From contig QEYB01001642.1 in assembly GCA_017562135.1 (NCBI GenBank), positions 744,001 through 808,000 of the forward strand: a stretch of 64,000 bases of DNA, read 5' to 3'. Below, piece after piece: positions 1 through 48,900 of the stretch (its first letter is position 1; each line of letters begins with the position of its first letter). A model generated the notes under the pieces. That model made no database searches, was not told the DNA's origin, and saw only the letters and a list, made by a program, of their open reading frames with translations. The translations under genes and the position numbers were made by a program. The stretch comes from Dipylidium caninum. Lineage: Eukaryota; Platyhelminthes; Cestoda; Cyclophyllidea; Dipylidiidae.

Positions 1-2071
1 CGGCAACTCTGTACATTAGATAACTTGACAAAGATAAACACACACACACAAGAGAGAGATAAAAGCAAAATTGCGTATAAACAGAATCGATTAATAACCC
101 ATGTGGCATTTTTATTAGTTGCCACAGTAGATATTAGCCATAACAATTCCCTAACATTGAAAGGTTATACGTGGATAGAGGGTTAGAGTGAGTGAAGCTT
201 CCTCCTTAATTGTGAAAGAAGAATAAAATCATCTATTATATGAAACAGCAGGATTCAAATAAAAGATCAAGAACAATAGAGAGTCAAGTGAAAGAATAGT
301 CAAAATGGACAATATAGGAAACCAAATGAGTTAACAATTTTCAAAATTTTAAGAAACTACGAGGAAAATGGGGGAAGGCATGATAGAGCAAAACTGTCGA
401 TGTTCAGCAAAATTTAACAAAGCTAAAACGACTCATATAATACCTGAAGGGTATTATAATGCTGTAAAAAATAGTTAGACGCAAGAACAAGTTCTGCAAG
501 ATACTCATAATAAAGTTAGTCTCAAGGCTTGAGAATCAGATCGGAGAATTTGAAAACAGGATTATTTGGTAATATGAGGGTAGACATGGGAACGAAAGCA
601 AAAAATAATTTTTCGAAGGCATCAATAAGAACATCACTCAAGAGGACCAATGATGAAGAGTCATCAGGGAATTGCAGGAGATAGTCAAACCAGATACAAA
701 TTTGAGAAAGACAAGACATTAATAGGTTGAAATAATTACGTAAAGAGCGGAACGAGCACATAAAGTGTGACATAAACGGCATACTGTTTATTATTCCACC
801 AAAGGTAACCAAGACACTAGGAGTCCTCGAATCTGTAACACGACAAGTGTGACCAAATTGTAGCCGAGCGCCAAAGCAATTCTGACAAGTCAAATAGTCA
901 AGGAAACTTAACATTACAACCACTATGAACAGATTTCGAAGTGATATTTTGAACCTAATGATAATTACGCTACCTGAAACTCAGATGGAGTGGATGCAAA
1001 AATAAATGGCAGAAAAAATGCGACAATAAAAGTAAATTTAATAATTTTTCATACATGAATAAACTGAGTATGAGTTAGCGCATTGTGCATTTACTCTAAG
1101 CTTACAGAGAGTTGTAACCTTCCGCTTGCTGGTAGACTAATAAAAGGAAGTCACTGCCATCTCTCGGGTTGAGCGAAGAGAAAGTACCTCATTGACATGA
1201 TATGCAACTACTAGATAAATAGCATTTAAGATTTGGGACTGCGGTACGTGGAACTATAGAACAAGTTACTAAAATAAATCAACTTAAAAATCCAACTCCG
1301 CTTATAGCTCCAACTCTTCTAGCTTACACGACTCGCCTGCATCTAGCTGTCTTATTGTCCACTGAAAGAATGGACTATAAAACTGGGTATTACACAGAGG
1401 TTGGTCTGGGCCCAAGGTGAACCATGATGTGGACTCCTTGGGCCGATAAAAGCAACCAACACAGCACAGAAGATGTACCGCATTCAGACATATTTCAAAA
1501 CATGGAAGGTAGTCACTATGAGTAGAAGTATTAAACTAATAAATGCGTGTTTACAAAAATTCAAAAAAGACCAAAGGTAAAGATGACTACGCAAATAGGA
1601 AAAAAAGAGGGTTTTAGGAAGAGACTGATGATCCAAAGAAAGTAATCAAACTTCAAATTAAACATTCATGATGTAAATTAACCCAACCATTGGCGGTGCG
1701 CCCTGCTGGATAGATATACTGAATACACTAAAACCAATCAGAATTTTATCACACACACACCCGCCCCATCACCAGTGGTGGGGTGTAAAGAAATAATCTG
1801 TGCAAAAGCGCAGCTGCAACATGTGGTAATGTAATTCTCCATTGTAGGATTGCGTGAAGGAGGGGAGAGGACTGGCGAAGAGAAAGACGGCGCATGAGTC
1901 ATGCGTTGTTTCCACTGGCTCACACCTACCAGCAGCGCACGCCTGAGACCAAGGCAAGCACTGTCCTCAAATTGACCCCAACGAGACATGCACACACGCA
2001 TGCATGCACACGAATAAAATCAATAAGCAGTGGCATTGGCGGAGGGGGCAACCGAAACCGCGAAAACTCAC
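1..2071. other. Probable SSBP intron, no exon seen
   Basis: No exon was recognised here. The stretch lies downstream (in minus orientation) of the SSBP exon at 2072-2144, so it is most simply a long intron of that gene, whose remaining exons would be beyond the left edge. The plus strand is A-rich, the mirror image of the T-rich plus strand in introns of plus-strand genes in this window, which fits minus-strand transcription. Open frames here (for example minus 1738-2001 and 1769-1957) lack any recognisable domain. I looked for the next SSBP exon, which carries a Trp-Trp-Cys motif, and did not find it. Confidence 0.5.
38..59. repeat. CA/AG dinucleotide repeat
   Basis: A short run of CA units passes directly into AG units near the left edge. 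It is a compound microsatellite with no apparent function. Confidence 0.8.
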
Positions 2072-2144
2072 TTCCTGAAGGAAAGTCTGTGCGGCCTTCT
2101 GCGCACCTGAGTAGACCAAGTACTCGTACACGTAAAGGGCTAAT
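2072..2144 (-). CDS. SSBP: SSBP2/3/4-like LisH-domain exon (partial gene)
   Basis: A 73-nt internal exon on the minus strand encodes LALYVYEYL followed by SGAQKAAQTFLQE. This is the LisH/LUFS dimerisation segment at the N terminus of SSBP2, SSBP3 and SSBP4, the nuclear single-stranded-DNA-binding cofactors that stabilise LIM-domain-binding protein (LDB) complexes. The acceptor is a good CAG preceded by a T-rich tract (plus 2145-2147). The donor is GTGAGT directly after the Gln-Glu codons. One leading base completes a codon from the upstream exon, so the initiating exon must lie at higher plus coordinates; I could not place it. The next exon would lie left of about 2072 and is not visible, so the gene continues beyond the window. 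Only one exon is seen, but the motif is distinctive. It is divergent to the F-box gene that starts near 3153. Confidence 0.8.
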
Positions 2145-3152
2145 CTGAAATAGTCAAATGTGAACAAAAATGTGTTAATTTGGATGCAAGCACAATACAT
2201 ATTCTCTCAAGGTTCAAATCATGAGTTGATAAAACTAGGAAGGGGGCCAGGAACTGCAAACCGGTTATATCAAAGGAGAATCGGGTTTAGACGTATAATA
2301 CGGTATCAAAACTCATTAGAAAGGAGAAATTGGTCGCACGAAGTTAGGTATGGTTGATACAATATTATTTACAACTGAATAAAGGACCAATATATAAGCA
2401 TGCAACAAAGCAAATTCCATCCACTATGCTCTCGTAAAAATGCGAGGTATTTTATTTATGAGAAAGCAACAGACACTGAATTCTACACAGATTGGACTCG
2501 AAGGAGGATCCGCTGTTATTCGAAAACAGTATTTATCCTTGGTATTTTAGAATTACCAAATTACATGCACCCAAACAAAGGAATTTGCCAACGGCGTATC
2601 ATTACTGTTTCGACGCGGTCCACAAGTTATAGAATCAAAAGCAAATCTAAAGAGTGCGTTTCGGGCACTGTTAAAAGAAAGAGCCAGTTGAAATAACAGG
2701 CATAAAAGACTAGCAGGTCGGATATGCACTTGATACGTAAGGTAGTGCTCACTTTTCATTAGCTTGGGCATCAGAAGGGGAAGAAAACGGTTTTGGCTTG
2801 CCGAACATCGAAAGGTTTAATAGTCCAAAATTTATAAATCCTGATTTCACTAATTTAGGTTTTTCAGGCGAGTTACTCCGGGGTTGACGAACCCCAGCAC
2901 GCCACTGGTACGTCAGGAGAGACTGTTCGTGAACACGATTGGCTCCAGTTGAATACAGCCAGAGGTTACTCTGCGATTGGAAAACTTGCTTCAGAATTTT
3001 ATTGGATCACTTAACTACTTTAAGGTCATAATTTTATACGAGTTTAAACAATTATACCAATTTTTTAATTCATTAAAATTTGCTATTGATTTTATATAAT
3101 TTAATTGTAGGAAAATGCTTTTAATAATTAGCGAATATAGGGTAGTGGTTAA
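2145..3152. promoter_or_regulatory. Spacer between SSBP and F-box gene, possible bidirectional promoter
   Basis: This kilobase separates the minus-strand SSBP exon from the first plausible ATG of the plus-strand F-box gene. It must hold the 5' end of SSBP (first exon not found) and the upstream region of the F-box gene. Open frames such as plus 2160-2357 and 2400-2696 show no domain and no convincing splice context. No TATA box or other core element could be assigned with confidence. Confidence 0.35.
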
Positions 3153-6100
3153 ATGGCTTCGCCGGGCTTTGGGGCATTGACCCTCGACACATTCAACTCT
3201 TATATTCTGTCTCTTTTAGAAGTTGATCTGAATGTTGCAACCCACCAGCCTACAAGGTAGGACATTTATATTCAAGTATCAACACGCATACAAAACCTCA
3301 ATTCGTCTGGCTGCAGACGCTTAAAACATATATTGACACGTTTTCCAAGGTTAAATATCTTCATTGGTTTTCTTGTTTCCCTAGTTTCACTCGCATTCTT
3401 GTCTACTTCATCAAAAAATTCACCTGATTGTTTCACAACACGAACTACCTCGTAGCAACTCGGGTTTCGTTGCCGTTGCTATGCTCTTCTGACTTGTATT
3501 TTTAAACTAACTTACGCCTTATGTAATATCCATATTACTTAGCTTATCGTTTGCCTGTTAACCTGTAGAATGGAGTAACTACCGTAATTGGGCTTTTATG
3601 CCCACATTGGTGTTAACTAAGATTTTCGCCTACCTGCCTTGGCGAGATCGGGCTCACGCTGCACTCACCTGCAAACGTTGGCTCAATGCTTTTTGCTCCC
3701 CTGACGTGTGGCGCGCTTTCACTTATCATCCACCGGCTCAGGGCTTAAAAAGGCCCCAGTATGACATGAAGATCTACTTCCTGGGGAGGTAACTATAGAA
3801 CCATTTATCTTGTTATTAACGAATATCGGTGACTTATAATTTGGTCAACTTAAAAATCCTTGAAAATGCGGATTTTTAGATATTTTGATGTTTGTAACAG
3901 ATACTAGTTTCTTAGATTGTTTTGGGACTAGGCTACAAATTTGATCATTACATTGCTTTTTTGTCAACAAGGGGGTTCCGGATTATTGGTTGGCACATCC
4001 AATATCTCCGATTTCCTGAAACGGAAGACTATTTCATGCTCAATCGTGTTCTTTTGTTAATCGCGGAGTTCTTTGAAGCCCATCCAATTCGGCATAATTT
4101 TTCGGGAAAATCTGTTGTCTCCACTGAGATTCTCTTCCCCGCACTGGCTGCTCTTGAAGCTGAACTTTCTCCTTCCTCTTCCTCCTCTTCTTCCGCCTGC
4201 CCATTCGAACGTCAAAAAGCATCATCGTCCCTTCCTGCACCTTTTCATGGATCGGATGAAGGAGATTCGAATGATGAGGCGAAATCGACCCACGAAGAAT
4301 TGACAGAGCAGATTCCGTGGGAGGTTCTTGCTGAATCAGTTTCGGGCGATCCGGACTTGCAAAATTCTATAAAACTTGCCATGAAACTTCAACAAAAAGA
4401 ATATGAACGTGACTCATCTTATTCATCAGATTCGGCAAATTCTTCTGAGGTCTGGGATTTATATTTTTTATGACAAGATAATTACGGTTCTCATGACAGT
4501 AATTCCTATTGCCCTTACTTCCAGATAAACAGCTTTCTTGAGTATGTTGCGTGAGGCGTGTCGTAGGAACATATTCCATTTTTTGCATCAGTTGACACCT
4601 TATTCCGTTACAGCTAGATAATCTAAAACCTATTCTACACTAGCCTCCTATTATTTCCTTAGGAGTATTTTCATTAGTTTGTACAATGTGTGTTTCCCTT
4701 TATAGCTTAAAAACATTACGGTTTATCTGGCTGATGTGTGGAATTTCGCTGAGTGATGTAACAGTTGACCTAAAAAACGATGCCAGCATTTTTGGAATTA
4801 ACGATACTAGTATATTTTTGATAAAAATGGTCTTCAAATTTAGCATTCTAACTAAATACGTCGTTTTGAAGGTAATTATAATAAACACGGTAAAAATGGG
4901 TAGCTCACTAGTCTGCTATAGGTATCTTTTTAACAACTTTTCTGAGTCTTCGTTTTTCCTTAACGAATCAGACAAATTCTCAAATCCATCCGATTTGAGA
5001 ATTTGTCTTTTGTGAACCTTCCTCATTCCTATTTTTTCTGATGTGTAAACAAAAATGTTCACAAAATTCAACTTCTGATAATCTTTGGATTTCGAGTATT
5101 TAAAAAAGTGTGCACTCCCAATCAGATTATTAGGAACTTCAAATGAATTCTTCTTACGCAAAATATATAATGGGGATTGGGAACGCAACCTCTATGCAAA
5201 TTGCTTGGCCAATATGCGCACTTTTTGGTAGAATTAAATTTTTACTCTTTTAGTTTTTCATAGACTGCATGTTATTTTTTTCGCGTTTCAACATGGTTAT
5301 TGCTTTCCTCTGTAATGTGATTTTCAAATATTCGGGCCCTTTATCCCTGACAAAATATTTTTAGTGAGGGGATTGATGGTCTAAGTTAAAAATACGATCT
5401 TCGTTAGGAGGTGTGGTGGTGGTACTTTCCCATAATTTACCATAATTCTTGTCTTCGTTCAAACTGCTTTTGGGTAATTTTGCTCTTTTTTTTAAAATCA
5501 TGTAAATGCCTTCATTCACAAGTTAATGATCTTTTGCCACTGGTATAGCTTATCATTTCTTCTACGTTTCGCTAGAGCATCGTTATATTGGGATTCAGCT
5601 TATTGTTCATCTCTGCTTGGTAGATTGTGGCAATGTTTTTTTAGAAAAATAACAAAGTATCATATTATACCAAAAGTGTGTTCGATGGAAGCACTATTTT
5701 CCGTTCGTGAAACGAATTAATTTAGCATGAAAATAAGCAGTGGTAAGAGCATCCGTTAATTTGATATCCCCGTGTGGAATAACAAAAATGTCAATCACTA
5801 CAAGGTTCTACGGTCAAATCGCAATGTGGCAAATGTTACGACCGCTTAAATTATGATTTACCTAGAAATTTCCTGGCCTCAAGGCCCCTGTGTCCGAAAG
5901 TATGCAAATTTATTTGAAATTTTAGTTCCAATATAGCTAATTTGGAAAAGATGCTTTACCGTTGTTAGTTGGGTGCTCAACAGCCTAAGCTATTTGACTG
6001 TCAGATTTAGCATAACATCTGGTACGGTGACCATGCACTGTTACCATTAATGTCAATTGGGAAATCGAGTTATCCATATTAAACAGTAACTCCAACTCAT

Positions 6101-9100
6101 CTGGCATTTTTGGCTCCCGTGGGACTGGGTACTTGAGTTAAAAGTGCTTTTTTGACTAAGGAATTATGTTGGATCTTACGATTTTTTGCCACATTTTTTA
6201 CTCCTTCCGCTAATGTAATGTACACAATTGCTTCCCACCGATAATTATGCCTCCCCCATCCTTTCTCTTGATATTTTAAACGAGGGTACCTTGTTGGTGT
6301 TTGATTTTTTCTATGGTGTAATGTATAGAGAAATTTTTCAGCATTATGTTTTAATGAATAAGACTAATTTTTTAGCCATTGAGCATATTCGGTGTGTTTT
6401 TATCTCAACCGGCGGTAATCCGTGCTGCGAAGTAAATATTATTCATGACATGCTTTTGTCATTTTTAGTTGAATTAATTTTTACGATGTCTCCCAAGTTG
6501 TAAACTGAAATGCTTTTTCCGTTAATATCTGGTCAACAAATTACCTACGTTTTGTCGAGTATGCTCAAAACATTTCCACTCGAAAACAATTTTGAACTTT
6601 TTCTCAACCATGACTTTGCTTAAAAAGGCCTTTTGCCCAAGGTGGTATACTGATAGAGCCTCTGTTTCCCTGAGCTGCGTTTGCATTCATGTTTACAGAA
6701 TTGGAATTTTTCACCAACTCATTACTGTTGTATAATCATAACGTGGCTGAGGTCTTATTATATACAATTTTGTTCCCCGTTGGGTAATTTTTTGTCCATT
6801 TTGTGGTTACGGTTTACGGTCCACGGGATTTATCTTACCAGCACTCACGCTTTTGCTGTAGCGTAACCATGACTCTTAGCAGTTTATTTTTCCGCCGCGC
6901 CATGGGTCATTAAAGTTTACACCATTCGTTGTTTTGTGCCAATAACCGGAATTCCTACTTCAATTCCAACATAATATCATAAAGGCGTAGATACAGCTCC
7001 TGAGTTGAACGTTTTCGTGTTATCTTATCATAATGACAAGAATGCTGTGCATGTTTCTGTTCGCGAATATTTTTTATAGCTATTTACATGTTTTTCCTCG
7101 CGAACGTTAGTTACATTCGCTGATATTTTTCAGCATTCAGGATAATCTAAGATTTTATATGGTAGGGTTTTAAATTGCGAATTTACAAATTTTTAAATGA
7201 CCTGCTATGATTGTCGATTTTTTTCCGGCTTTTCCATATATGGCGCGGAATTTTTTATTCAGTAATTAGGAATAGTTTTTTTCTGTCGCTCATGCTTTCA
7301 GTGACCGTTATAATAACACCCGAAGAGTAAATGATTTTTCTCCTATTCAAATTAGGTAAATTTCCTTTTTCGTCTTAATATCGAGGTCAACCGTCAAAAT
7401 ATCGCAAATCCCAACCAAACCGTACGTTCCCGTTTTAAATGAAGCTAAGTGTTGACAGTAAATTCCATTGGGAGAAAGAGATAACACAATTTTTTTAAGA
7501 ATCTCGACCAGTCAACCCGCGTACCGCTTTCTGGGATCTGTACGCCCTCGCATGTTATGGACTTTTTTGTATTTTTATTAATACAGAGCGGAATTGGCTT
7601 CTCTTCTCAAACACGTGCGGATGCATCTTCGCAGCTCTCTAACTCGGTGCCTATCAGCTTGCAGTTTCGCAGCTCCTCTACCGTCGTACCACCATCGACC
7701 TCGGGTTTAACTAGCGGGACAGTAGGTGGACCTTCGGGAACAAGTGTTAGTCGCGGAGGGACAAGGGGTCATAAGTACCAGCGCAGCTTGAGCTGCAAAT
7801 TTTATCGTACCGCCCACCGACTGCCATATCCACCGGACACATCTAATCTCCCGCCTCCTTGTGTGCGTTCCTTCTCCCTCGACTTTCACGCTGAGTTCGA
7901 CGAGGCCTCGGGGGTCGTCTATGGCTCTGGGGGGGTGCTCTTCGCTACCATAGTCCGAGTTCTATCCCAACTCAAGCATTTGCGTGCCCTCTACCTCCGC
8001 AACCTCTTCCTCTCTCAACTCGACGCGCGCCAACTTCTCATTGAGGTCTCAACAGTACGTGATTCCTTACATTTTATCTCTGCTCACTAATTCATGCCAA
8101 TTCCCTGTTTGCTATGTTCACACACCCCTTTGCTTCTTAGCGCTTTCTCTGCTTTTACTGTACTATATGAAACGTTACGTCGTAGTCCTAAATATTTCTT
8201 TCCTCGGTTTTCAAAAGTGGCCGTATTTTTTACAAAATCAACTTTTTAACGTGTCACGTTTCCACTTGCTCATCTAGCTAGACAGACCAGATTCTAATAG
8301 GTTTATTTGACGACGAGTTAGTTTTATTGTCATCTTCAGACTAAACCTTCTTCCGGTTTGATTATTCCTATCCGACTTTCATAATGCTGTTAAGTGGTTT
8401 TACAACTCTGATCTCCATCTTTCCCCCACTTTTATGCTACTTCTCGTTGACTTGCATGTAATTCTCACACGGTTGTTTTGTTAGTTTTGAGTATATTATA
8501 GTCGGAAGTATAATGTTTTTCTTTTATTAATTGTTAAAGGCGACTCCTGGAATGCCATCAGTTTATTAATATAGTTTTTAATCTCCGGGAGGATATTAAT
8601 GACAATAAAAGCTTTTTTGGAGTGCCATGAATCCACACATGCAGTGGAAAAAAGAGCAAGTGATATTACCTCCAAAACACTATTGTTTTAAGTCTGTTTA
8701 AGTAGAATATTTTTTTGTTGCTCTTGCTAACGCCACTTGTTCCTTAATAATCTCCTATTCGGCCATTGTTAGACACTGCGCTTAAAAATATTTGTAGCTG
8801 CTCTATTTCCCGCCGCTTTTCGTTTGACCCATCTCTATTGTCCATTACTTCCACAGCTGTCCCGCTTCATGCAGTTTTCTTTTTTCATGCCTAACGTTGG
8901 TCCTTTTCTTCCATCGTAGCTATCATAGCATTGTTCTTTTTTACCAACTTAGTGCAAATGACAAATGCTTAGTATTTTGTTAGTATCACCCTTTATTTTC
9001 CCATAATCGCTGTATTTTCTTTATTAAATCTGTTTTATTCCTGTTTCTGAACTTGTTTTTTCAAACAGTTACGGAATGTAATGAAACACTTCGTAATGGT

Positions 9101-22703: not shown

Positions 22704-25700
22704 GTATGTCCCCCCGAATCCGTCTCTCCAAACGACGATCCCACTATTTGATAAAGCGAGATCACTTCTGTTATACCTCCCTTCCCCTTCGATAACTCAC
22801 TTTTCTCTCTCAAAACACTTTCTCGTCATATTGCTTCAAAAATACTTGCTTATTACTCCTCTCAGCGGTCTTTTTTAGTGTTTGCCAATGCATTTCCAGG
22901 TAATAAAATTTACTGCCAGTTCGCCATCAGTGCATACTTTAGGAAATTTCGTTAGTCGGTAGTTTAAAGCCTAAAGTTAATACTGATCCTAAATCCTTCT
23001 GTCAGGGTCTTTTAAACATGTTCTCTCCTCATCAGTACATTTCTGTTTGATATTACGAGAAGTGCAATAAGGAGTCAGTTTACTGTAACGGATTCCTTCC
23101 TCCCCTTGTGGTTGCAGATATGCCTACACCGATTTAGAGTTAGTGCGTCCAATGCAAGTTCGTCATCTTTATGACTCAGACGTGATTGCTAATATGACGG
23201 AACGAAAGTCCTTCGCATTTCTGCGTGATTCCGTCAAATTCGATGATCCCGACATCGGACATACGACCACTGGTGCAAGTCGCAACGACTGTCCCCCAAA
23301 ACACGCCTTCATCCCAACCATTAGTCTTCTTATCTGGTACCAACAACGCCTCTCGCCCTATCCTGACACCCTGCGCCCTTCAATCGCCGATCTGTCTGCA
23401 GAGACATGGGCTGATGGTCGGGCCCTGCGATGTCTCCTGCACAAATATCGTCCCGATTTGTTGTCCGAAGGAGCATTGGAGACAACGACGGGAACAGAAA
23501 TGGGAGCAGAAGAAGTCATGCGTCTTCTAGCTGAGAATTTTGGTGTGCCACATACGTTGCCCCTTTCGGGCTGGCCCCAATATCTCAGCGTTCTTATAAC
23601 TGTTTGAAGAATCATGAGCCTGCATTTGTGAGGAATTTGACCGGTAGGTATGACTTTTTTCGATCAGTGAAGCTTGACGTCTAACATCGTTATCGTTTTT
23701 TCCTTACTTTGAAATTTTATATTTTTATCAAGTGCGAACAAAACGTGTAGGGGCTTTTTGCCACCCTTCGGTATGGAGGCCTTTATCTTTGGTGTTTCAC
23801 TCGTCCTAAAAAGCATTAATAAGTTCTGTGATTTTCTTACAGTTGATATTTTACTGATGTGAGCATGCTTTTTTCGAGTTAAGTGAATTAACGACTTGCC
23901 TTCCGAAACCGCGAACCGTAAATCATATTAAGCTGTCATCTATGACGTGGATGTTTTTGTTTAGTCTGTGTTCAGCTGTGAATAAGCGACATACATTTTA
24001 CCATGCGCCCGATACTTTTATTTACACATTTTAAAGACATTCTTCCTGCCGCCTCGCACACGTTTCTCGTGTTTGTACACCATTTCCTTTTTTGTCGAAA
24101 TCAGATGCAAACAAGACGCGACTTCCACCTACTTTACTTATACCTGTTCAAAGTGAATCAGAGCGCAGATTGGGAGGCTTTGAGAAACATTAATGAGGCA
24201 TTCGGAGATGAATCCACTAATAAAAAAGGCGCTCGACATTGCCTCTGAAAATTTGGTTCTGGCAATTCGAGTGGCGTCAAGGAGTCTCGAGGAAGACCAC
24301 CGACTCACGTTGCCAACGAGGAGGAAGAATGAAAGACGTCTGTGCAAAAGTATTCGCCAAATTGGGTCTAAGTGGGGAATCAGGAAGTGGGAAGTACACA
24401 CGGCTGTGTCAACACATTTGCGTACAAGAAATGAAGACTGAAAGTGGCCTCTCGTGTGCCAGCCATGCGAAATGACGAGGGTCGAGCGCACGAGCGAGTG
24501 TGCATGCTTGTTGCCCCCTTTGCAATACACGGTTGTCGCCGTTTTTACACCTAATCATGACTTACGATGAAAAGCGGATTTCGCATGATCATCGGAAACG
24601 ACCCGCAAAGTGGGTGGGTGAGAAGACAGCCATCAGGAGACACTGCTGAGCCGAAATTTCATCAAATCAAATCAAATCAAATCAAATCACAGTGATGTTC
24701 ATCATGACGTGGGATGCCCAAGCGATGGAGTCATCACCCAGCATTCCTTCCTTCCTTTACTTCCCACCACCACCGCCACCGCCACCAGGCGAAAGCATAA
24801 CGGCGGCGGAGTCTTCCTACTGCCGTGCATTCAATGCCATGTCATGCATGAAATGAAAAGCAATCGGCATTGTTCAGTGGGCAAGGCGCAACGGCGACCC
24901 CACCAAGATTCAGCTGCTGTTGGCAAATTAAATAACTTCCCTAAACCGCTAAAGTGTGTGCCGAATCCTCCATATTCACTTGACATTTCTCCGACCGACG
25001 GATTAGTACCTACTTCGTACTTGCGAATTGTTTTTAAGAGCAACAATAGTGCGAAAGCCAAAGTGATGTGAGAAAAGACTTTGAATCGCATATTGCGTCT
25101 AAATGTAAATAAGGGTGTTTTTCAAAGAGGTACTATGGCTTGCCTAATCGACAGCAGAAAGTTGTAGATGAGAATGCAAATTATTGCGGTTGAATGTGGC
25201 AAATAATGTGTGCAATTACGCTTTTGTTTTCTACTTATAGTCAACGCCCATTTCAGGCTTTCCAACCTACTATTATTTAGCGATGAAGGATATTTTGCGT
25301 TTGGTCGGACGACTAGATCCTTTATTTTTCAACGTCTGCGTCTTAACATGTAGCAACTCACTGAGTTATCTTTTTTCGCCGTTAAATCCGATGACTTTAG
25401 GCACTTTCAAATTTGAATATCGCGGTTAATTACTGAGCGAAATTCCCCGCATGCTTTACTGCTAATGCTGCCGCGTGTCCTTTGTCTGCAGAATAGTCCA
25501 ACTCGACGGTGTTCAAATTCCCGTCCAGTCATCCGAAAAGCCAAGTCCACCGTGTGAATGTGCCATTTACGGGTCTTACTTTCCCTCTTATTTGCGTAGG
25601 CTGATCACCACTATAATTAGCTTCCGTGTGCACACTAAACGGCAACTTCGAATGACATCATCCCCACAGAATTCAATTCTCTATGCGCACTGTTAGTCAG

Positions 25701-28700
25701 TCATACCTCATGAAAGACTGAAATCCCTCTTCCACGTTCCCCTTTCTCTGTTCACTCCAAATTTAAGCGGTAGGCAAATCGAAGTGTGAAATAGCATTCG
25801 TTTGAAATTATCGGGGAGGATAAATTTCACCTTAATCCCCTTAAAATACCCCACTTTTGGAAGTGTATATGTGTTGTAAAAGTTAACTCTTTTATTGTTC
25901 TTTATCAGTTCGCACTCACCCTGCAAGTATTAACGAATTGCGTCAGCGTTCCTTCGTAGTCGCCTCGCCGACCACATCAAATCGCTCTATCAACCGCTAC
26001 ATCGACCCTTTGTCCTCACCACGTGTCGCCTCGAGAGCACGGCCTCCGTTCCTTCCACGAAGCGAGTACCCTCTCCAGCATATTCACACAACCAAACGCA
26101 ATCCTGTAAGTCTCGTTCCACGTCCCGATTCTATCACAACTGCATACCGGAGAGAAGACGCCCTTTCTGCTGTCGAGAAGGGGCTCATGTCGAAACGCAA
26201 GTCCGAATTCTTAGCGATGCTCGTAAGTTCTCACCCCTTCACTTGTATCGAATATGCCAGTTTGGTCTGCGGTTCACTGCATTACTTTTCTAAGGAGCAC
26301 TATTTCAAGGAATTTCTAGGCCCCTCATTTTGACATGAGGCTTTTAATCAACTGTCAGCATTCTCTCGCTATCTTTTGCACTCAGAGAAAATCAAAATTT
26401 AATATTATTTTTTTCTATGTCTTACTTCTCTCAAATGTGTTCACTTTTAGATTATCGCTTTTACTCTATGTTTGGCCAGTTAGTAGAGTTACTAAAGAGG
26501 GGCTTTTTGTAGAAGCTTTTAATGGACAAGTTAACTAAATAACTAATTTGCTCCTGGAAAGGAATTTTGGTCTCCTTTTTACTCCTGATAATTCGGTATT
26601 TGGTAAACACGCTATCTTCTTTGCATGAATACATCACCATTATTCGTGTCGCTGTGTGCTCACGGAAGTGAGTGCAGTTATTAATTGGCGGGGGGCAGTC
26701 CCTGTGGGCGTCTCACAATTCTTCGAATCTGTGTCTTTACTAAAATTAAGCCAAAAACGATGTCTTCTAACGTTTTCAATGAAAAAAAAAAAACTTAAAG
26801 GAAAGTGCTTTTTATTCCGCAAAGTATGTACACTTACGAGGCAGGTAGAATATGGCGACGATTTTAACTGGAATGAGGTTAGAATTCGGGTGACTTGCAT
26901 TCGTCTAGTTTGTGGCTGGCAGTATTCCCTCTTTTCAGAATGATCCAGCATCAGCGAAGCGGCGTAGCCTCCTGATTGACTGGGAGAAAGCTGTCGAGGA
27001 GGCTGGACTGCTGCCTTCTTCCAACCGCCCGCAACGTATCCTGCCTCCAAACGACAACCAGCCCAACAATTGCGCTTCAACGTTCAGCGGGGTGAGTGGC
27101 TGCGATTTCGTCGCATCTGACCCTACAAATTATCGACTGCGTCATTTAACGAAATTCGGACGACCGCGTTTCTTGTGTGACATTGTTACTTGACCCTAAT
27201 TCAGTGAACAGCGAAGGTTTATTGACCGTTTGCGCAAGCAGATCGTGGAGGCCACTTACTTTGCTCTAAGCGTCTTTCCGCTAAGTCGACGCGCTCCCCT
27301 ATTGGGCCTATGTGAAATTCCTCATATTCGAGCCTACCGTGATGTTTTACATTTTATTACCTTGGAATTTTTATTGGGCTGATCGCGATTACGCTGTCCA
27401 TTCACCAGGCGCATAATTTTGCTACAGCAAGAACTGATTTCGCTAATTACATCATTGCGCTTTTTCATGTCTTATCAATGAATCTTTACCGTTGTTTTCA
27501 ATTTTTTCACTAGTGTGAGCTTTTTATCTTTATCGCTGTACAACGACCGCAAAGAACACGACTACGGCTTTTTTATAAACTGATAAAGTTTTTAGCTATA
27601 GCAGAATATCACTGGGCCTGTGCAGCTCATTCATATGCCATTGCGGCGGATTGGCAGTTTCGGGTTTGACGAAACCGTTGGCCTCATGCACCGTGATGTT
27701 GGCATTGCAGCTTTTGTACTCACTTCCCATAAGACCAAGTTATTCTCCTGATTGCTACTGCTTCCCAAAATGGGACTTGCTGTAAATAGACTCTGGAGTT
27801 TGTTCACGAAGACGTTAAATTCATTTCTGGGCTTCGGTACCACCCACTCACACACTACAAGTCTGTAGGCTTTAGTCCCAATACACTCGCGAATTTGGAT
27901 TTGGGAAAGGTTTATTCAGCAATTCACAGGTAGCATTCCGCCATTTACTGACATTCAAGCTGACAAGGTGAGTGCCCATCTGGAAAGCCTTTTATTTTTA
28001 CTAAGAAGTCCCGAGACTTCTGTGCCGTCTGCAAAAGGATCCTCTACGCAGCTGAATGTCGAGCTTATGACGGTTTCCGCTTGCATCCGAGATGTTTTCG
28101 CTGTGTCGAGTGTCAGCGTCTCCTTCGCCCGGACACTGTCCGCTTCCTGCACCACCCGACTGGTCGTAAGTGAGCCTATAACCTCTAGTTTACTTTACTT
28201 AAATGGAATTATGTAGCGTGTATATTGCATTTTTACTCGTAGTTCCTCTTACTCCTGTCAACTTCATCGTCACTCAGCATTTATGCCACAATGCACCTTG
28301 GGAAATGTGTCGCAGGTCTGTAATATATTGCGGCTACTCGGGTGAACGCCACGCTGGAGACTTACGTTAACCACTTCCCCTAATCAACGCTGCCTTTAAT
28401 CACAACACGAAAAGTGTAATGGTGCAAACTATCGTTACTTCGGAAAGTGGATAAGGTGAGGAGAAGCTTATGACAGAAGTTTTGCACAAAGTCAGTTGTC
28501 AATGCCGTGTTAATTATATTATTACAGACTAGCTTGCTGACTTTTCTATCGTCAAGGTGTGCTAACGTTTTCCCCTGTCGTCGTTCGCTGCCTACCTTCC
28601 AGCAGAGTGTGAGCTCAGCTTGCCTCACCTCTCACCTCCCCTAAAAATAAACAAAAAACAACATTTAAGTTGATGTGGCCGCTCGTCACATATCTCCAAC

Positions 28701-31700
28701 GTATATTCGGGAAGCGCAAATCACTACTTTTAACAGTAGCTTATTATACGAAATCTGGTCTCCTTTTTAAGCCTACTAGACGATTTCTTCTCTATCGTGG
28801 TACACTTTCGTGTAAATGGCACGACTTCGCTTTAAATAGCGTGGGACCACGTTGACACTGAGCCTCTGCCATGCGAAATTCTGTGTGCTAGGGCGGAGGT
28901 GCATCGGAATCATGTGTAGAGCCTCGCTTTGTGTGTGTGCCCCGAGGTTGAAAGCCTGGTGCGTCTGGTTGGTGCGCTTTGAAGTGACGCGTTTGCCCCA
29001 TTCGAAGCGTGTCTCTGTATGCGTGTTTGTGTGTGTTAGTGTGTGTATACGTGTGTTTTAGAGCAGTTGCTTGCCTCCTCGCTGATTTTCACAAGTCAGA
29101 CGTTTCTTTACTCTTTTTGATTCAGCTAAGTTCTACTGCGCCACACACTTCCCCTGCTCATCGACGCCCAATCCGACGGCTGCTTCGGACTCAAAAATGT
29201 GCGCAAGAAATTTCGGTAAGTTTCTCTCCTACTTCCGTTTAACTACTCTTATTCCACCTTCAATGTTATCTATTTCCATGGGAGTGCCAAATCTGTTGGT
29301 TTACTTGCAATCCTTCAAAGTAATACTTTTCGTCCGTAGGAAAATGCGTTGATACACCGGAACCGAGAACCCTAAATCCGCGATCTTTCCGGTGCTCATC
29401 TTTGCTTTTGTCGAATATTAAATTTTCATAAATCACTAGATTCAAACACGATCTCTCTACTAGTGGTAGCAATGCGCATTCTCTCTATAGTTTCATAAAC
29501 TCATTTATTGTTTATGCCACGGGCGTACTCCGTGCCGACGTGATACGCCAATGAGCTCTTATAATCACCCAAAGCGTTGATTTTTGCACTTAATTTCCGC
29601 CATCGTCTTAACTACGCTCTTTAGCTCATAACCGCCAAACATCTTGGATTTTTTAACACCTGGTTTCTCCTGAACCCGAATCTCGTGATCCTACAAATAA
29701 CTTCACGTATTGTATCCACTTAAGTTGCTTCAGGCAGGTGATATGGGCTTTCCTCTTTCCTAGCCTTACGTCAACCGTTTCTGTGAAAACGTCTCTCTCT
29801 CTCTCTCCTACAACTTCAAATTACTACCTTCACTTTGACGTAAATTATAGCGTTTTACAATATCGCTTCCTGATTCGTGCCGTTCTTTCGGTTATCTGCT
29901 TCTGGGCGACTCTTAGGTCCCTACGCGTTTAGGTGTGAAATACATTGGTGCATTTCTTAAGAGATTGAATCTTCATCGCCTCGCTCTTATAACATGGGGC
30001 CGTTCATTAAATTGTGATTGGTCAAAAGAACTTGAAATGGTGTTCTTTAATAGCTTGGTGCTTTGCAAGGTCTCTAATACTGGTGCACTTTCCGCCCTCC
30101 TTTAGTGTTATGTTAATATGCACGAAGGACCTCGTAACCCGAATTGCCAGCGACATACGTAATTAGGTCCATAAACGGGCTGTTTATGTCCGACCCTTCT
30201 TCTTTTTCGCAGAGTGGGTGACGGTAGTTGTGTTGCACCAGTCCTCACCATCAGTGGTGCTGGTCATTGCCGGGCAAACGTCTACGGCTCAAATACACTT
30301 GCATCCACTTTCGAGCGAGTTAAAGCGGGTACCGGACGATAGCTCTGTCCCGTCTCACTCACTCACCCCTCCTACCCCTTCCTCTCCTCCCCAACAACTG
30401 CTTTTTTGCTTAACGATTACCTTTCTATGTCGGGACAGACTCAACCTCTACTCCAAAAATTTTTTATGTATTCCGAATTGCTCATTATTTTAAATCCGCT
30501 CTAAACTGAGGCCGCTTCCACGGAGGTGTGTTACTTTGCCCACTTTCTGTCGAGCACTTCTCCAAAGAGGACTTGTGGTTTTATTGTTCGATACTTTTTT
30601 CCTTTCAACAACCAATTAGCTCCACATTTCTGTGGGCAGCTAAATTCGCGCAAAGTGTTTCTTGATTTTGCGCTTTCCCTTATAATTGTTCCCGCCGTCT
30701 TTCAATGCCGACCGGTTACGTGATCTGGTACGTGGTAGCGATGTTGACGACGCCTCAGCCCTTTTGCCAACAGATTTTTATACAACAGGATATTTACTAA
30801 ATGAAGAATGGAATGGCGATCTCACTTAATATACTCGAGGGTTGTGCTTTTTTTTCTAAATAGTGCATGCAGAAAATCGGTTTTCCATCCCTTTGGTTTC
30901 ATTTTTTCTTCTTTCCTATTATGCTCCTAAGTTAGCATTTTGGTGTCTTTTGGAAAAAATTTGGAGTTTGTGTCACCTGGGAACGCGTTGATTAAGTGAT
31001 TGACATGTATTTCCTGGAGTAAAACCTGAAAATTCGTGCTCTACCAAACTTTACCACACCTCCAGTCGCCTTCATTGAAATCCCAAGTAGCGAATATAAC
31101 GCCTGCGGAGGTATTCTTTCTCCGCAAGTATTTTACTCTACTGCCTTAATATCAGGTGAAGTGTTTGAATGTCTGTCGGACTTTACCCACAACAGCTTCC
31201 ACATTCCACTGCACGTATCCGTGAGGAATATGATCAGTCTGTTTTATGAATTACAATGGTAACACGCAGGATTGTTTGGTAAAATTAATGCCCATCTTAC
31301 ACTGGATTATTCCTCATTTTATTACCGATAGTTTCACCGAAACCGCGTGCACACAATACTCCGAGCCTCTTCTATGATCCGTCTATTCTGCTTTCGCCGT
31401 CAAAGCCTCGATATAACCAGTCTAACGGTAGTTCGGTGGCTTCCGCAGCGCCACAGTCTGCTAGGCACGTCCCTTCCGATCTATCGAACAGCATATCAGT
31501 TGCTAGGGGCATACGGGACGAGCCCGCCCCACCGGTTCTGCTTACCTCCCGCACCGTCCCAGGCACACTGGGAATGCCGGAGTGCCTGCGTCGAGCCGCC
31601 TTCGATGAACGTCTCTATCGCCTTGACGGAGCCTTCACGCTCGAAAAATTCATAAGGTTAGCTAGTTTATTGGATTAAGTGACTTGTTTTTAAAGATGAT

Positions 31701-34700
31701 GTTATGGGTGGTCAGTGGAGCTTAATGCATACAAACCAATAGTAGATATCTACATCCGTAACAGTCAGTGGCCCCAACGCCTGCCAAATTTTGTAGGCAC
31801 TGACTGTGTTCGGACGTTACTAGGTTGGAAACCATGAAACATGCGTTGACTAGAAGTAGAAAACAAAAGCGTAGTTGCACACACTATTTACCACATTCAA
31901 CCGAAATAATTTCCATTCTCATCTACGACTTTCTGCTGCCGATTGGGCAAGCCATAGTACCTCTTTGAAAACACCCTTATTTAAATTTAGACGTAATATG
32001 CGATTCGAAGTCTTTTCTCACATAATTTTGGCTTTCGCACTAATGTCGCTATTGAAAACAATTCGCAAGTACGAAGCAGGCACTAATCCGTCGGTCGGAG
32101 AAATGTCAAGTGAATATGGAGGATTCGGCACACACTTTAGCGGTTTAGGGAAGTTATTTAATTTGCCAACAGCAGCTGAATCTTGGTGGGGTCGCCGTTG
32201 CGCCTTGCCCACTGAACAATGCCGATTGCTTTTCATTTCATGCATGACATGGCATTGAATGCACGGCAGTAGGAAGACTCCGCCGCCGTTATGCTTTCGC
32301 CCGGTGGCGGTGGCGGTGGTGGTGGGAAGTAAAGGAAGGAAGGAATGCTGGGTGATGACTCCATCGCTTGGGCATCCCACGTCATGATGAACATCACTGT
32401 GATTTGATTTGATTTGATTTGATGAAATTTCGGCTCAGCAGTGTCTCCTGATGGCTGTCTTCTCATCCACCCACCCACCCACTTTGCGGGTCGTTTCCGA
32501 TGATCATGCGAAATCCGCTTTTCATCGTAAGTCATGATTAGGTGTAAAAACGGCGACAACCGTGTATTGCAAAGGGGGCAACAAGCATGCACACTCGCTC
32601 GTGCGCTCGACCCTCGTCATTTCGCATGGCTGGCACACAAGAGGCCACTTTCAGTCTTCATTTCTTGTACGCAAATGTGTTCACACAGCCGTGTGTGTAC
32701 TTCCCGCTTCCTGATTCCCCGCTTAGACCCAATTTCGCGAATACTTTTGCACAGACGTCTTTCATTCTTCCTCCTCGTTGGCAACGTGAGTCGGTGGTCT
32801 TCCTCGAGACTCCTTGACGCCACTCGAATTGCCAGAACCAAATTTTCAGAGGCAATGTCGAGCGCCTTTTTTATTAGTGGATTCATCTCCGAATGCCTCA
32901 TTAATGTTTCTCAAAGCCTCCCAATCTGCGCTCTGATTCACTTTGAACAGGTATAAGTAAAGTAGGTGGAAGTCGCGTCTTGTTTGCATCTGATTTCGAC
33001 AAAAAAGGAAATGGTGTACAAACACGAGAAACGTGTGCGAGGCGGCAGGAAGAATGTCTTTAAAATGTGTAAATAAAAGTATCGGGCGCATGGTAAAATG
33101 TATGTCGCTTATTCACAGCTGAACACAGACTAAACAAAAACATCCACGTCATAGATGACAGCTTAATTTTCTCCACTCCTCAGCATATTTCACCCAACAT
33201 GTCCACCATCTGGAAGGTACTGTGTTGAGCAGAAAGCACACTGGCTCTCGTAAATGCACATTTTGACACACAGGCACGTATGCACATATGTATCCACAAC
33301 CAGTGTTTCCCCCAAATTCTAGTCTGTTTTACCTCATTGTGTTGTTAATGTCCCCGGAGTAAGTGCGTCTTCTGTCATTTTGCAATACTTAATAAAAATT
33401 CTGAATTTGTTCACAAAACTGTAAATTTTTCAACCTGGCGGCAGTTAATAAGCCTGAATTGCACTCATACTGAACATGGTGTTAGACACCCATTCGGACG
33501 ATTTTTCGTAATCATGAACGGGTGAGATCGAACTAGGCTAGGTAGTGCGCTGTAAAACGGCTGACTTTAGGCCTGTTGTCGCTATCGAAGTTTGCACACT
33601 AAAAGGTTTGCGCCTACAGACTGTTTAGCATAACACGAACGTTTAGCCGGAAGTTTTACCGATTTCGCGGGTTCGTGGGTTACAGGACGAGCTCTACAGT
33701 GAATCCACTTAGGATTTTTCCTTCCATCATTTCACTCTTGATCTTGATCAAACTATCCCGATATAACCTCCTAACAACTTTTCTTATCAGACCGTGTGAC
33801 CGCTGTTCCATTCCGCATTTCAGCGATAATACCCCACGAAGGCTTGAGGGAGAAGAGGAGTGCTTTGCGTAAGCTAATTTTTTTACCTTGCATTCTACAC
33901 CATATTTCAATCAATGCAAGTAAATGCCACCAACCGTCCTTGAATGATACTACTTTTCGAACATAAACACATTTATGCTTATCAGATCAATTTATTTAGT
34001 CAATATTCATGTTTTTCTCTTAGAAAAATTAAGATACTGTTAGTTATGAGAAGCTATAGATGTAGCTTAGTTTTCACTTTTTATCAATGCCACTTTTGTC
34101 CCCGTCCTGGTTGAGTGGCATATTATTTTTCCACACCAGTTCTGGCGAAGACGAGCGTTTGGAACTTGGGCTGGCAAGTAACATCGAGTCTACTTGCAGT
34201 GAATCCCCCCCAATTAACATCGACGAGGCTGCACGCCTTTGCCGTAACATGCGCGATGAACGTTTCTACCGACGCCACCATCCACCCCCTGAGAGCTCTT
34301 CAGACAGTGGAGAAGAAGTTGAGAGCGATGAAGAAGACGACCCCGAGAGTGATGAGGATAGCCAACTTATCAGTATGGACACCTTCGACACACCTCAAAC
34401 ACTTCCCGAGTATGCGAACGTTCGTTGGACTCTTGTCAGACCCCCGCCCTCGCCTGCTCCCGTTCCACCCACTCTTGCTCCCTCTCCTCCCGCCGCGGAG
34501 CAATCGCCGCTGGTTCAGAAGTATGGTCTCTCGGGATCTATGTTGCTGGCCAAACAGCGATTCTGCATGGCAGATCCCGAGCCTATACGCATCGACTCGC
34601 GGGCTTTTAGGGCAACGAAAAACAAAGAACGCACGACCGAATCAATTTTGCCCGACTGCACCGAGCAAGTGGAATTACTGCCAGATATGGTGACCATTTC

Positions 34701-44171: not shown

Positions 44172-45383
44172 TTACGTTAAGCCGACAGCTTTACGTGAAA
44201 TAGCGATGAATTCGTTTCCCACTCCTTCATTCAAGGCAAGAGGAAGGGGAGTGGAAAGCTCACAATCAGCATAGTAGGCGCCTGAGACCAGTTTCGGTGT
44301 CAGAATAGTGTATAGGGTGGTTTGTGCACCTTCCCAGGGCGTCTTGAAAAAAGGTCGAGTGAAGACGCAAGGGAGAATCTGAAGGGGAGAAGGGGTGAAC
44401 CATGTGAGCATCCGAGCTCTTCGATCACAGTTTTTGCAGCACGGCATTAGCCACTTTATTTCGTTAAACCCTGTCTACTAATGCATTCTTTCCTGAGAAA
44501 CAATTTTATAAATTTTTGGATTCCTGCATCACCATTGTTACTACCTACCGATAATCCAAGGAAGCGGAACAGCTCCGTCTGGACGACACCAGGATGAACA
44601 CTGGCCGTTTTGATACCATAAACCTCTAACTCTTTAGCTAAGTGTTTAGCGTACACTACATTGGCCAGCTTTGAACGACTGTAGCTTTCAAACCGACGAT
44701 AGCTCGCGCAATCCATATTCAACGGCAGTAAACCACTCTACAAGGCGGTTATACGATTTGATCTGTTAATACCTTTGCTCTAAGGTGTGCCTTAGAGGAA
44801 ACGAATATAATCCTAGCTCCGGCACCAGCGTTCTTGATTGTGGGAAGTAGCAATTCGGTTAAGAGTAAGGGTCCGAGATGGTTGGTCCCCATTTGCAACT
44901 CAAAACCGTCCTCAGTTACGCCATACGGGCAAGCCATTATCCCGGCATTGTTAACCAATATGTCTATTTTAGATTCCAACTGACAGATCCTTCGTGCAAA
45001 GTCACGCACAGATTTGAGGGAGCTTAGATCTAGATATTCCAAAGTAAGCTGGTTAGGCTTAATGGGTGATAAGTCTTGCTTGATCTCAGAGTTGAGGACG
45101 TTTTTTGTTAATGCGGAGAGCTGGCCTTCTCCATAGCATGATAGGATGTCCATTTTTGCCGTTCAGCGCGGTCAAGGTTTCTGCAGGCCATAATGACCCG
45201 GGCTCCACGCCTAGCCAATTCGGCAGCTGTCGCCTTGCCAATTCCAGAATTAGCCCCTGTAACGATCGCAACCTTCCCATCAAGACGTCCCTTCTCGTGG
45301 CACTTCGAGCCTGAAAAGTAGAATTTGTTTGCCGCGAATAAAGCGACACCAGCCCCACCGAGTGCGAGAAAAGCTTTCCACAT
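44172..45383 (-). CDS. RDH: Retinol dehydrogenase-like SDR (RDH11-14 type), minus copy
   Basis: A classical short-chain dehydrogenase/reductase that would interconvert retinol or lipid aldehydes using NADP(H) at ER or mitochondrial membranes. Exons 44773-45383, 44549-44737 and 44172-44378 join in phase 0. The N-terminus is a membrane anchor ([19 protein letters not shown]). It is followed by the cofactor motif TGANSGIG, the ACRNLDRAE strand, NNAGIM, the catalytic Ser region RIIFVSS and the YxxxK motif YSRSK, then PGVVQTEL and [11 protein letters not shown]. Exon 1 is out of frame by one base at a run of five T on the plus strand (45153-45157): one more A in the coding strand gives [14 protein letters not shown] and restores 612 nt. 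The first intron is 35 nt (44738-44772). It is head-to-head with a paralogue at 45962, whose two equivalent introns are at identical positions. Substrate is unknown. Confidence 0.9.
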
Positions 45384-45961
45384 GCTTATTCCGGCGTTAA
45401 ATACATCTTAGTGCTACGGGTATTCATAAAATCTAGGTTCTTACTGGTCGGTCTTCCGACCAATGGCTACTCTCCCGGTGTTGCGCTTCGCACGCGTTAA
45501 CAGGTCACGTAACCAATTCGCGTGTGAGAGACCGTTTGTCACCTTGACGTAATGTTCGACATCAAGTCAACATTTTGCTGTATCGCGCAAAAAATAACTT
45601 AGCTGAACTAAATAACGTCCGGTATCAAGGCTAGAAGTCACTTTTATTTATGCTTATTTCCCTGTTTCAGTTACTATTTCCACTTGACTAGTTAAATTTC
45701 TATTACAGTGGCTGGGTTTTTGGCACCATAGAAGACCCGTACCAGAATTTCTGAGTTGGTAGTAACTCCTTTTAAACCTCCCTTAGCGCCTTGACTTGTG
45801 TCTTTAGCTAACCCACATAAAGTTAATGCGCCAGTGACTTGCAACACCAAACACAGAAGCAATACATCTGATTCGGTGACTGGTGAATCAGCTGACACCG
45901 AGCTTGACAATCAACCAATCAGGTGAAAGTCTTTAATTTCTCTGAATCTACAGCATGTCGG
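45384..45961. promoter_or_regulatory. Bidirectional spacer between two RDH paralogues
   Basis: Only 578 nt separate the two start codons, so the 5' UTRs and promoters of both RDH-like genes must share it. No TATA box or repeat stands out. An open minus frame (45692-45910) has no recognisable domain. Shared regulation of the pair is inference. Confidence 0.5.
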
Positions 45962-48900
45962 ATGCTCGACACTTTGTGTGTGATGTTGGCGGGATGTGTG
46001 GTGTCTTTTCTTATAATTTCTAGCCTCGCCTTCTTGCTCCATGTTATTGTTCGCAAACGGACCAGTTTTTGCCACATCCAGGGGCGTCTAACTCGCAGGA
46101 TTGTGATTGTCACTGGGGCCAACAGCGGAATAGGGCTGGCAACTGCAGCCGAGTCGGCCAGACGCGGTGCATGGGTTGTTATGGCATGTCGTGACGTTAA
46201 CCTTGCTAAAGAGGCTAAACACCGAATTCTCGACCGATATGGGCACGGTAGAGGAGACGAGGTCGCGTGCAGAGTAAACGTCGCATCTCCAGAAGTTGGG
46301 TTCTTTCTCACCCCCATCGAGGATCACCAGGTTAGTTTGCCCGGGAACCAAGAATTCACTGCAGAAACAGGACAGAATTAACAGTTTAACGTAAAATTTT
46401 GAAGCCATACATTTTCGCACACCCATCAAATGATTTTCGTTGAATATACCAAAAGACAATCTCTCCAAAATGAATTTTAAAAGAAAAACTCCTTTTATTG
46501 ACAATATTTCCTCTTCAACTACTGTGTCGTTGAGTCTGTCTAGCTTTTGTCACCATTTCTTATTAGTTGCTTTATCGTAAGATTTGAAAGTTAACAAAAA
46601 CAACTACCTCGAGGAGCTCGTGATAAAGACCAGAGGTTTAGGGTGGTGAAAAAGGAAGTCAAATCTGAGATATTTATTACGTGGACCACCTAATCGTATA
46701 AATGGGTTATTGTTCTTATTTTATTCAGGTTCGTTGGAGCATTTCATCCCTGATCGTTTAAACCTAAGTATCGTATACTGGAGAAAACCTGCAAAATTTG
46801 TTCCACTTGCGCAATAGTTGATCGTGGAGGAGGTGGACTTGACATCGCTTGAATCCGTGCGCTGTTTCGCAGACCGAATCTTAGCGAGATACCCGAAGGT
46901 TGATTTTCTGATCAACAATGCAGGAATCATGTACCAGCCTTTTGGTCGCACCCAGGAAGGCTTTGAGTTGCACGTGGGTGTGAACTACCTCGCCCACTTC
47001 CTCCTCACCCTCCGCCTCTTGCCCGCTCTCAGACGTGCCGGGGCTGCTGCCGAAGCGCGTATCATCAACGTCTCCTCATTTGCTCATCGCTTTGGGCGGG
47101 TTAGTTCGAAATCTCCAACCTACTTATGCGCAATAAATGTAAACTAGTGATCCAAATGCCCATTAAGTGTCTAAATGAAATAGTCTCGATGTACAGTCAA
47201 TGAACTTCCTGCGAATTTTTTACCATTTGTTGCCTCTATGACAGTTTGTCGAAATGGACAACATTACGGGAACTTGAAGCAGCCCCTGTGTTTGCTCACT
47301 CGTGGTTAGTTGTTTACGAGGCTCATTATGTGGGACTCCTTTCGAGGAAAGTGCCCGGGTAGACTTTGAACAAAAATTCTTGCTCATCCAAAATGCCGCA
47401 TCAGTTCCTTTTTCCCGTATGAGTGTATTATTTAAAAACTCTGTCCTTATGGTGACACATCCAAGAGAAGCTGATTGGCACCACCGTAAATGGCTCACAT
47501 GACAGTGGTTTCATTTCATTCTTTTATTCTCTTCTCTGACACGCTATGTTAATTCCAATATTTCGGCATTACTGCAGACAGTTATTTGGTAGGTCACGAT
47601 TTCATTGCTGCACTAGCGTCCGGTTGAAAGGGGGAAACTCCAAAAGCTCTTATCACACTACGTAACTCACATTTGAAGTCGGAAAGTTAGGAGAGGACCG
47701 TAAGCATATGACATAACCGTAAATGATGACTTCGTTCTCCACTATCTTTGAGGGGGGATGAATCGAGTTCCTTCTACAATGACATTCTTTTGAAACACAA
47801 AAAGCGTGTAGTCCCCCCTCCCCGACTGCATTTAGAACCTTCAAATCACGTATGCGTATAGGCAAAAAAGACTTATAGCAATGCCAATGATTGATGATTT
47901 TGGTCATTTTATTCGGCGACTCGTGTGTTTACGTTTTGTGATGCTTTTGAAAGGGTGAGCAGTTATAGGGGAACCGCAAAATGTAAACTGGTTTTGTGAT
48001 AGATAATTCCTGCACAGTAGTGCGCAGGTCATGCGGTGCGATGAATTGAGGCAATTTCCGTTGTCTTTGATGTAGCATGAAAATGTGGTTGAAGAGATTA
48101 GTTAGAGTGGGCATTGCCTTCTTCCTTCAAATATACCGATTTTCTCTTCGGCTTACAGTGAATTAGCAAAATTGACAGCATAAAGAATTATCACGCGTGG
48201 GAAAGAAAATGACCTCCTCACAGCTCACAGAACTACCACACAACCTGTTTTTCCTCCGTTCTCTGATACCCCGAGCCCCCCCTTTGGCTATTTCTCCTTT
48301 GCGAACCCTCTTTTGGCTCATGCACCGCTTCCCTTTTCGAATTTGCTTCTGTTTTGTGGATGTATATCCGATATTAATCGCATTTACCTAGTGGATAATG
48401 CGTGGTAATAGCTCATAGAGTATTTCTTTGGGATTGCACTTCCCCATTAACAAATCTTGTAAGTCGGACAGGAAACAGATGCGTGAATCAACGAAAAGGA
48501 CATCGATATCCAACCAAGTTAGTCTCGGTGTCTTACTGTTTATGAAGTTTATATTTTGTCAATGCTCTATCGCAGGTCCCAATATTATTTTCGGAGAATC
48601 CGGATGAGGAAAAGGCGAAATTCAACAGGCTGCAGGCATATGCAGACTCTAAGTTGGCCCAAGTTATTCATGCCCATGAGTTGGCCAGACGTCTCAAAGG
48701 TACTGGTGTTTGCGCGGTCAGTCTCCATCCCGGAACGTGCCTCACAAACCTCGTTCGGCTTCCTATACTTAGGGTAGGCAGTTATATATATGTTAGAATC
48801 AGTTAAGACGTTGCATCTTGATTCCGGTGAATCGACTTAGGCGATCTTTCTAAGAAAAAAGTTACAATTACAACTACCCATTCACCTGCTGTACCATGCA

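Follow-up and report, generated by a model that had tools for sequence, protein, structure and literature searches.

An inverted pair of decayed mariner-like elements in introns of a Dipylidium caninum MICAL gene, probably overwritten over most of their length by gene conversion

The window analysed here (that is, the whole stretch of 64,000 nucleotides of Dipylidium caninum contig QEYB01001642.1, positions 744,001 to 808,000 of the forward strand) carries on its plus strand a MICAL gene, the domains of which follow one another in the order Rossman_Mical, CH, LIM and bMERB in a Pfam search; the matches to Rossman_Mical (E = 7.9e-30 and 1.4e-14) and LIM (E = 8.4e-7) lie above the Pfam cut-off, and those to CH (E = 2.9e-4) and bMERB (E = 1.4e-4) just under their cut-offs. 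Two decayed copies of one mariner-like element, here called A and B, lie in introns of this gene in opposite orientation, and six candidate exons, including that of the LIM domain, are found between them (Table 1). Joined, these six yield an open frame in 12 of the 576 border combinations that result from multiplying the exon border options considered. An earlier note on this DNA had placed the LIM-encoding exon of MICAL between the two copies, and both the LIM match and the domain order, which is as expected for MICAL, bear this out. If the exon borders are correct, a candidate intron as short as about 38 bp (27968-28005) directly precedes the LIM exon.

Table 1. Features of the MICAL region, in coordinates of the window
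Feature	Position	Strand	Basis
Mariner copy A, decayed	23928-25270	+	Intron after CH exon; TA on both sides; repeat blocks, HTH_48 in frame 2
Left part of A, nearly identical to B	23927-25007	+	6 substitutions in 1,076 columns, 5 of them in 24358-24453
Right end of A, 10% diverged from B	25008-25270	+	26 substitutions in 262 columns
Candidate MICAL exon	25909-26222	+	Joined open frame
Candidate MICAL exon	26939-27095 (end 27081 or 27095)	+	Joined open frame
Candidate MICAL exon	27930-27967 (start 27930 or 27934)	+	Joined open frame
LIM exon	28006-28165 (start 27988, 28006 or 28009; end 28162 or 28165)	+	Pfam LIM, open frame
Candidate MICAL exon	29126-29215	+	Joined open frame
Candidate MICAL exon	31332-31656	+	Joined open frame; no Pfam match
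Mariner copy B, decayed	31820-33166	-	Flanked by TA and TT; repeat blocks, sequence
Possible 33-bp exon	33184-33216	+	Starts 17 bases past the end of B; open frame and splice-like borders only

A repeat search of the whole window found five inverted-repeat blocks that jointly pair 23927-25272 with 31818-33167, and no repeats of at least 40 bp (seed 12) other than these five; the self-comparison that the earlier note had proposed as a check thus leaves the inverted pair as the sole repeat of this size. The alignment of A with B comprises 1,338 ungapped columns with 32 substitutions (97.6% identity) and 16 gap columns, and pairwise alignment shows that the similarity ends at the element borders, beyond which the flanking DNA is unrelated. 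The previously described picture of two copies of the same element, each about 1.34 kb long, inverted and about 6.5 kb apart, is upheld by the blocks and the alignment, as are the proposed end points (23927-25270 and 31821-33167; 23928-25270 and 31820-33166 as read from the sequence). Copy A is bordered by TA at 23926-7 and at 25271-2, copy B by TA at 31818-9 and TT at 33167-8. A TA on both sides is the expected target duplication of a mariner. The ends of the copies, TTAAGCTG and, reversed, GTAGGTTG, were read by eye, unscored, as candidate terminal inverted repeats.

The sequence points to A and B being decayed mariner elements, weakly at the protein level and better at the DNA level. A match to HTH_48, the helix-turn-helix of Mos1 transposase, lies in frame 2 of A (E = 1e-4; 22.8 bits against a Pfam cut-off of 24.1), the other two frames match none of the Pfam families, and PF01359 was found in none of the three. 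When a transposase frame of this genome served as tblastn query, four short matches were obtained within A and B (E = 0.016-0.18). At least three DNA relatives of A, by comparison, adjoin matches to PF01359 (C95:78133 next to C95:77639, C296:4594994 next to C296:4595535 and C394:959970 next to C394:959556), of which a profile search of the contigs records at least 135 in the genome. The pair resembles mariners with a Mos1-type helix-turn-helix and PF01359 in its sub-cut-off HTH_48 match, the TA flanks of A, its length and its DNA likeness to PF01359-bearing copies, whereas it differs from them in its lost coding capacity and faint protein matches; the mariner assignment that had been made from transposase motifs draws its support from the DNA relatives, and less from the motifs themselves (HTH_48 below cut-off, tblastn E of at least 0.016).

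The differences between A and B are unevenly spread. The best change-point separates 6 substitutions in 1,076 columns from 26 in 262, a step that 0 of 5,000 permutations reached, and the longest substitution-free run, of 431 columns, was likewise reached in 0 of 5,000. Within the nearly identical part, 23927-24357 is free of substitutions, 24358-24453 holds five together with a 2-bp indel, and 24454-25007 holds one together with two differences in length (8 bp and 5 bp). In eight outgroup copies, divergence stays at 27-42% throughout the windows that lie within the element, with no step, so that constraint or local mutation rate, and specifically a slowly evolving left part, can be ruled out as its cause. 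Polarized by outgroups, the right-end differences comprise 13 derived in B, 10 derived in A and 3 ties. Other relatives of the pair in the genome, with the best 40 candidates scored per search, reach at most 77% identity over at least 100 bp and at most 82% over 60-75 bp, and those in the longer outgroup alignments are 61-66% identical; because these scored relatives are far more distant, chance is excluded as the source of the likeness between A and B. The result is a low-divergence tract that breaks off sharply within the homologous stretch, as is expected after interlocus gene conversion. As no window of the pair reaches the outgroup level of divergence, independent insertion of the two copies is unproven from A and B alone. 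The earlier description of two decayed mariners in MICAL introns with the LIM exon between them stands, and its account of them as two insertions of one element falls short as a full explanation, given that their likeness is a mosaic and far exceeds that to the other scored copies.

Three further near-identical same-contig pairs (on contigs C687, C226 and C296) are inverted, lie 37 to 183 kb apart and are uneven, each with 0 of 5,000 permutations in both tests. The pair on C687 (39 kb apart) has a clean run of 686 columns and 22/89 substitutions at one end; on C226, with 37 kb between the copies, divergence is 0-10% in the core and 25% and 41% at the ends, where outgroups stand at 44% and 49%. 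In both pairs the ends are diverged, though to a lesser degree than the outgroups; some of the end windows compared in these three pairs extend into flanking DNA. In the pair on C296 (183 kb apart), eight core windows lie at 0-7% and one window at either end is at outgroup level (left, 39.0% versus 41.9%; right, 32.3% versus 29.4%). Because these two windows differ as outgroups do, it is here that independent copies sharing a core are most clearly seen. A direct pair on C164 (757054-757278 and 806708-806932), the copies of which are separated by 50 kb and differ by 2 substitutions over 996 columns, with many gap columns besides, showed no unevenness (478 of 5,000 permutations). Mariner sequence also occurs in a palindrome on C387 (223500-233400), the arms of which (1253-4494 and 5626-8903 of this locus, L054) are 3.2 kb long, 98.3% identical and about 1.1 kb apart, each holding parts of two mariner copies; this palindrome is likely an inverted segmental duplication.

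Near-identical pairs are in excess within contigs. Among 59 loci, pairs of at least 90% identity numbered 4 of 32 within a contig versus 0 of 1,679 between contigs (Fisher 1e-7), pairs of at least 85% 4 of 32 versus 2 of 1,679 (1.5e-6) and pairs of at least 80% 4 of 32 versus 4 of 1,679 (6.7e-6), figures that serve as a guide only, as one of the four same-contig pairs is A and B themselves, the pairs are non-independent and linkage was scored per contig, contigs not being chromosomes. A survey with seven query copies (PF01359 match ranks 1 and 4-9) found closer partners on the own contig for two (L012 on C164 and L014 on C459, both clearly closer to these partners), on another contig for one and none for four (L009, L013, L015 and L016). 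The one with partners elsewhere, L017 on C828, has two 86% matches on C853 (30473-31849 and 19969-20915), one of which covers nearly the whole 1.4-kb query. With own-contig partners in two of seven, contig-wise clustering of copies was not found to be a general rule. All four pairs of at least 90% in the 59-locus comparison are inverted; a preference for inverted pairs is nonetheless not established, given the direct pair on C164 and the direct partners on C164 (one of the four closest to L012) and C459 (one of five partners of L014).

Between contigs, four pairs fall at 80-90% identity (L019/L033, L038/L069, L018/L066 and L021/L066). The match of L019 to L033, being 3.2 kb long, holds more than one element. 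That of L038 to L069 (contigs C880 and C755) is uneven, with 0 substitutions in 117 columns followed by 98 in 1,125 (step, 1 of 5,000 permutations; clean run, 19 of 5,000); unless both contigs are linked, this counts against a requirement for linkage. The sequence shared by L018 and L066 is small-subunit rRNA, which lies near mariner-like matches in both (positions 3372-4501 of L066, on C618, and 414-1073 of L018, on C889); the stretch in L018 is 85-91% like that in L066, and one of the two may be a decayed rRNA copy. According to extracts of a review on Caenorhabditis, conversion is 3.7-fold more frequent within than between chromosomes (PMC3966223); the same extracts cite a Caenorhabditis survey that leans towards same-orientation pairs, the opposite of a preference for inverted ones, and a human study in which proximity had no effect on conversion (PMC3966223).

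Taking these observations together, we consider it likely that most of A and B was overwritten by recent gene conversion, superimposed on an older common origin of the whole element. Two old, dead mariners would have come to lie in one gene as an inverted repeat with wide spacing, and their common origin, judged from the divergence of about 10% at the right end, would be younger than the spread of the family; this older layer may go back to an earlier conversion of the element from end to end, or else to a copy that transposed when it was already decayed. Later, a break in one arm may have been mended with the other arm as template, either within the chromosome or from its sister, with the flanks left unexchanged, and we take the right end of A (25008-25270) to be the part not overwritten in this last event. 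How copies that had diverged by about 30% could convert is not obvious, and we find it more probable that a few linked pairs were still young when their cores began to be kept alike, with the ends escaping, than that conversion set in at such divergence.

Linked transposition alone, in which one copy is the daughter of the other, shifted by about 6.5 kb through transposase supplied in trans and left without later conversion, would account for a likeness that stops exactly at the element borders and for the TA on both sides of A, and it may well explain the older 10% layer; yet a single event implies a single age, and adjacent parts of A and B stand at 0.6% and 10% with no step in the outgroups, for which reason we regard transposition as a rather unlikely full account. 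An inverted duplication of a segment that happened to hold the element has a precedent in the same genome in the palindrome on C387, but on either side of A and B unrelated flanking DNA begins directly at the element border, and we reject this origin for the pair as extremely improbable.

That the sequence of one copy was placed into the other during assembly must be considered for an assembly in 920 contigs, and the same concern was raised in a yeast study of a homogenized inverted repeat, as its excerpts show (PMC9731477). Such an error would nevertheless have to leave 32 substitutions and several indels in place, some of them in the clean part, and to recur in the same shape at other loci, and copies about 30% diverged should hardly be confusable for an assembler; we therefore hold an artefact to be improbable. 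Near-perfect complementarity of about 1.3 kb around six candidate exons of one gene might instead have been selected, as an intronic hairpin that steers MICAL splicing or exon circularization, in keeping with the backsplicing favoured by reverse-complementary repeats (PMC8516420, in part) and with the selection on structure that the authors of a Caenorhabditis inverted-repeat study finally favour in the sections at hand (PMC1803023). The right end has drifted to 10%, though, and similar pairs lie 37-183 kb apart, where one common transcript is unlikely, so that we give selection very little weight, and the pair is probably without a function of its own.

Conversion between inverted copies is a process of a known kind, and what gives the present case its value is how sharp the mosaic is and that the genome holds sister cases at other loci. 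In the flip/flop region of Saccharomyces, as described in excerpts of the report, a homogenized 4-kb inverted repeat of genes brackets 24 kb that have been shown to flip (PMC9731477); there, as here, two inverted copies that are alike within a genome bracket a stretch of DNA, whereas the pair in MICAL is a dead intronic transposon, and its flipping is a prediction. The inverted repeats formed by paralogous gene pairs in Caenorhabditis, for which the available sections list conversion among the mechanisms considered (PMC1803023), similarly have nearly identical arms while the family diverges, and differ in being gene pairs compared with orthologues, whereas A and B were compared within one genome. 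Conversion among human LTRs shares with our case that transposon copies are the partners and, for those of the Y, that it acts mostly within one chromosome, but it concerns retroviral LTRs, with tracts of 99 bp on average and 450 bp at most in the portions of the paper available (PMC4921805), whereas about 1 kb of a DNA transposon is affected here; that these tracts are shorter than the region proposed for A and B counts against the conversion reading. A literature search on conversion among transposon copies found no paper on converted mariner pairs, which does not prove their absence from print.

More generally, we raise as a tentative possibility that some long-dead mariners on the same chromosome are locked together by conversion, mostly in inverted orientation and over distances of up to about 180 kb, with identical cores and escaping ends, while most others drift. 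If so, dead mariners would be a lasting source of brackets prone to inversion, and the LIM half of MICAL would sit within one of these. Exchange in place of conversion between A and B would be expected to occasionally invert the exons between them (LIM included), and the two introns could pair in the pre-mRNA and favour backsplicing, as excerpts of PMC8516420 suggest for such repeats. Converted pairs would keep such substrates for inversion alive inside genes and would look young in an old family, which matters for age estimates of transposons that assume independent divergence. The core-to-end contrast inside a single element also makes it possible to test, in a natural setting, how conversion comes to a halt and how divergence escapes it.

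Elsewhere in the window, two divergent short-chain dehydrogenase genes lie about 500 bp apart (45108-45407 on the minus strand and 45908-47147 on the plus strand).
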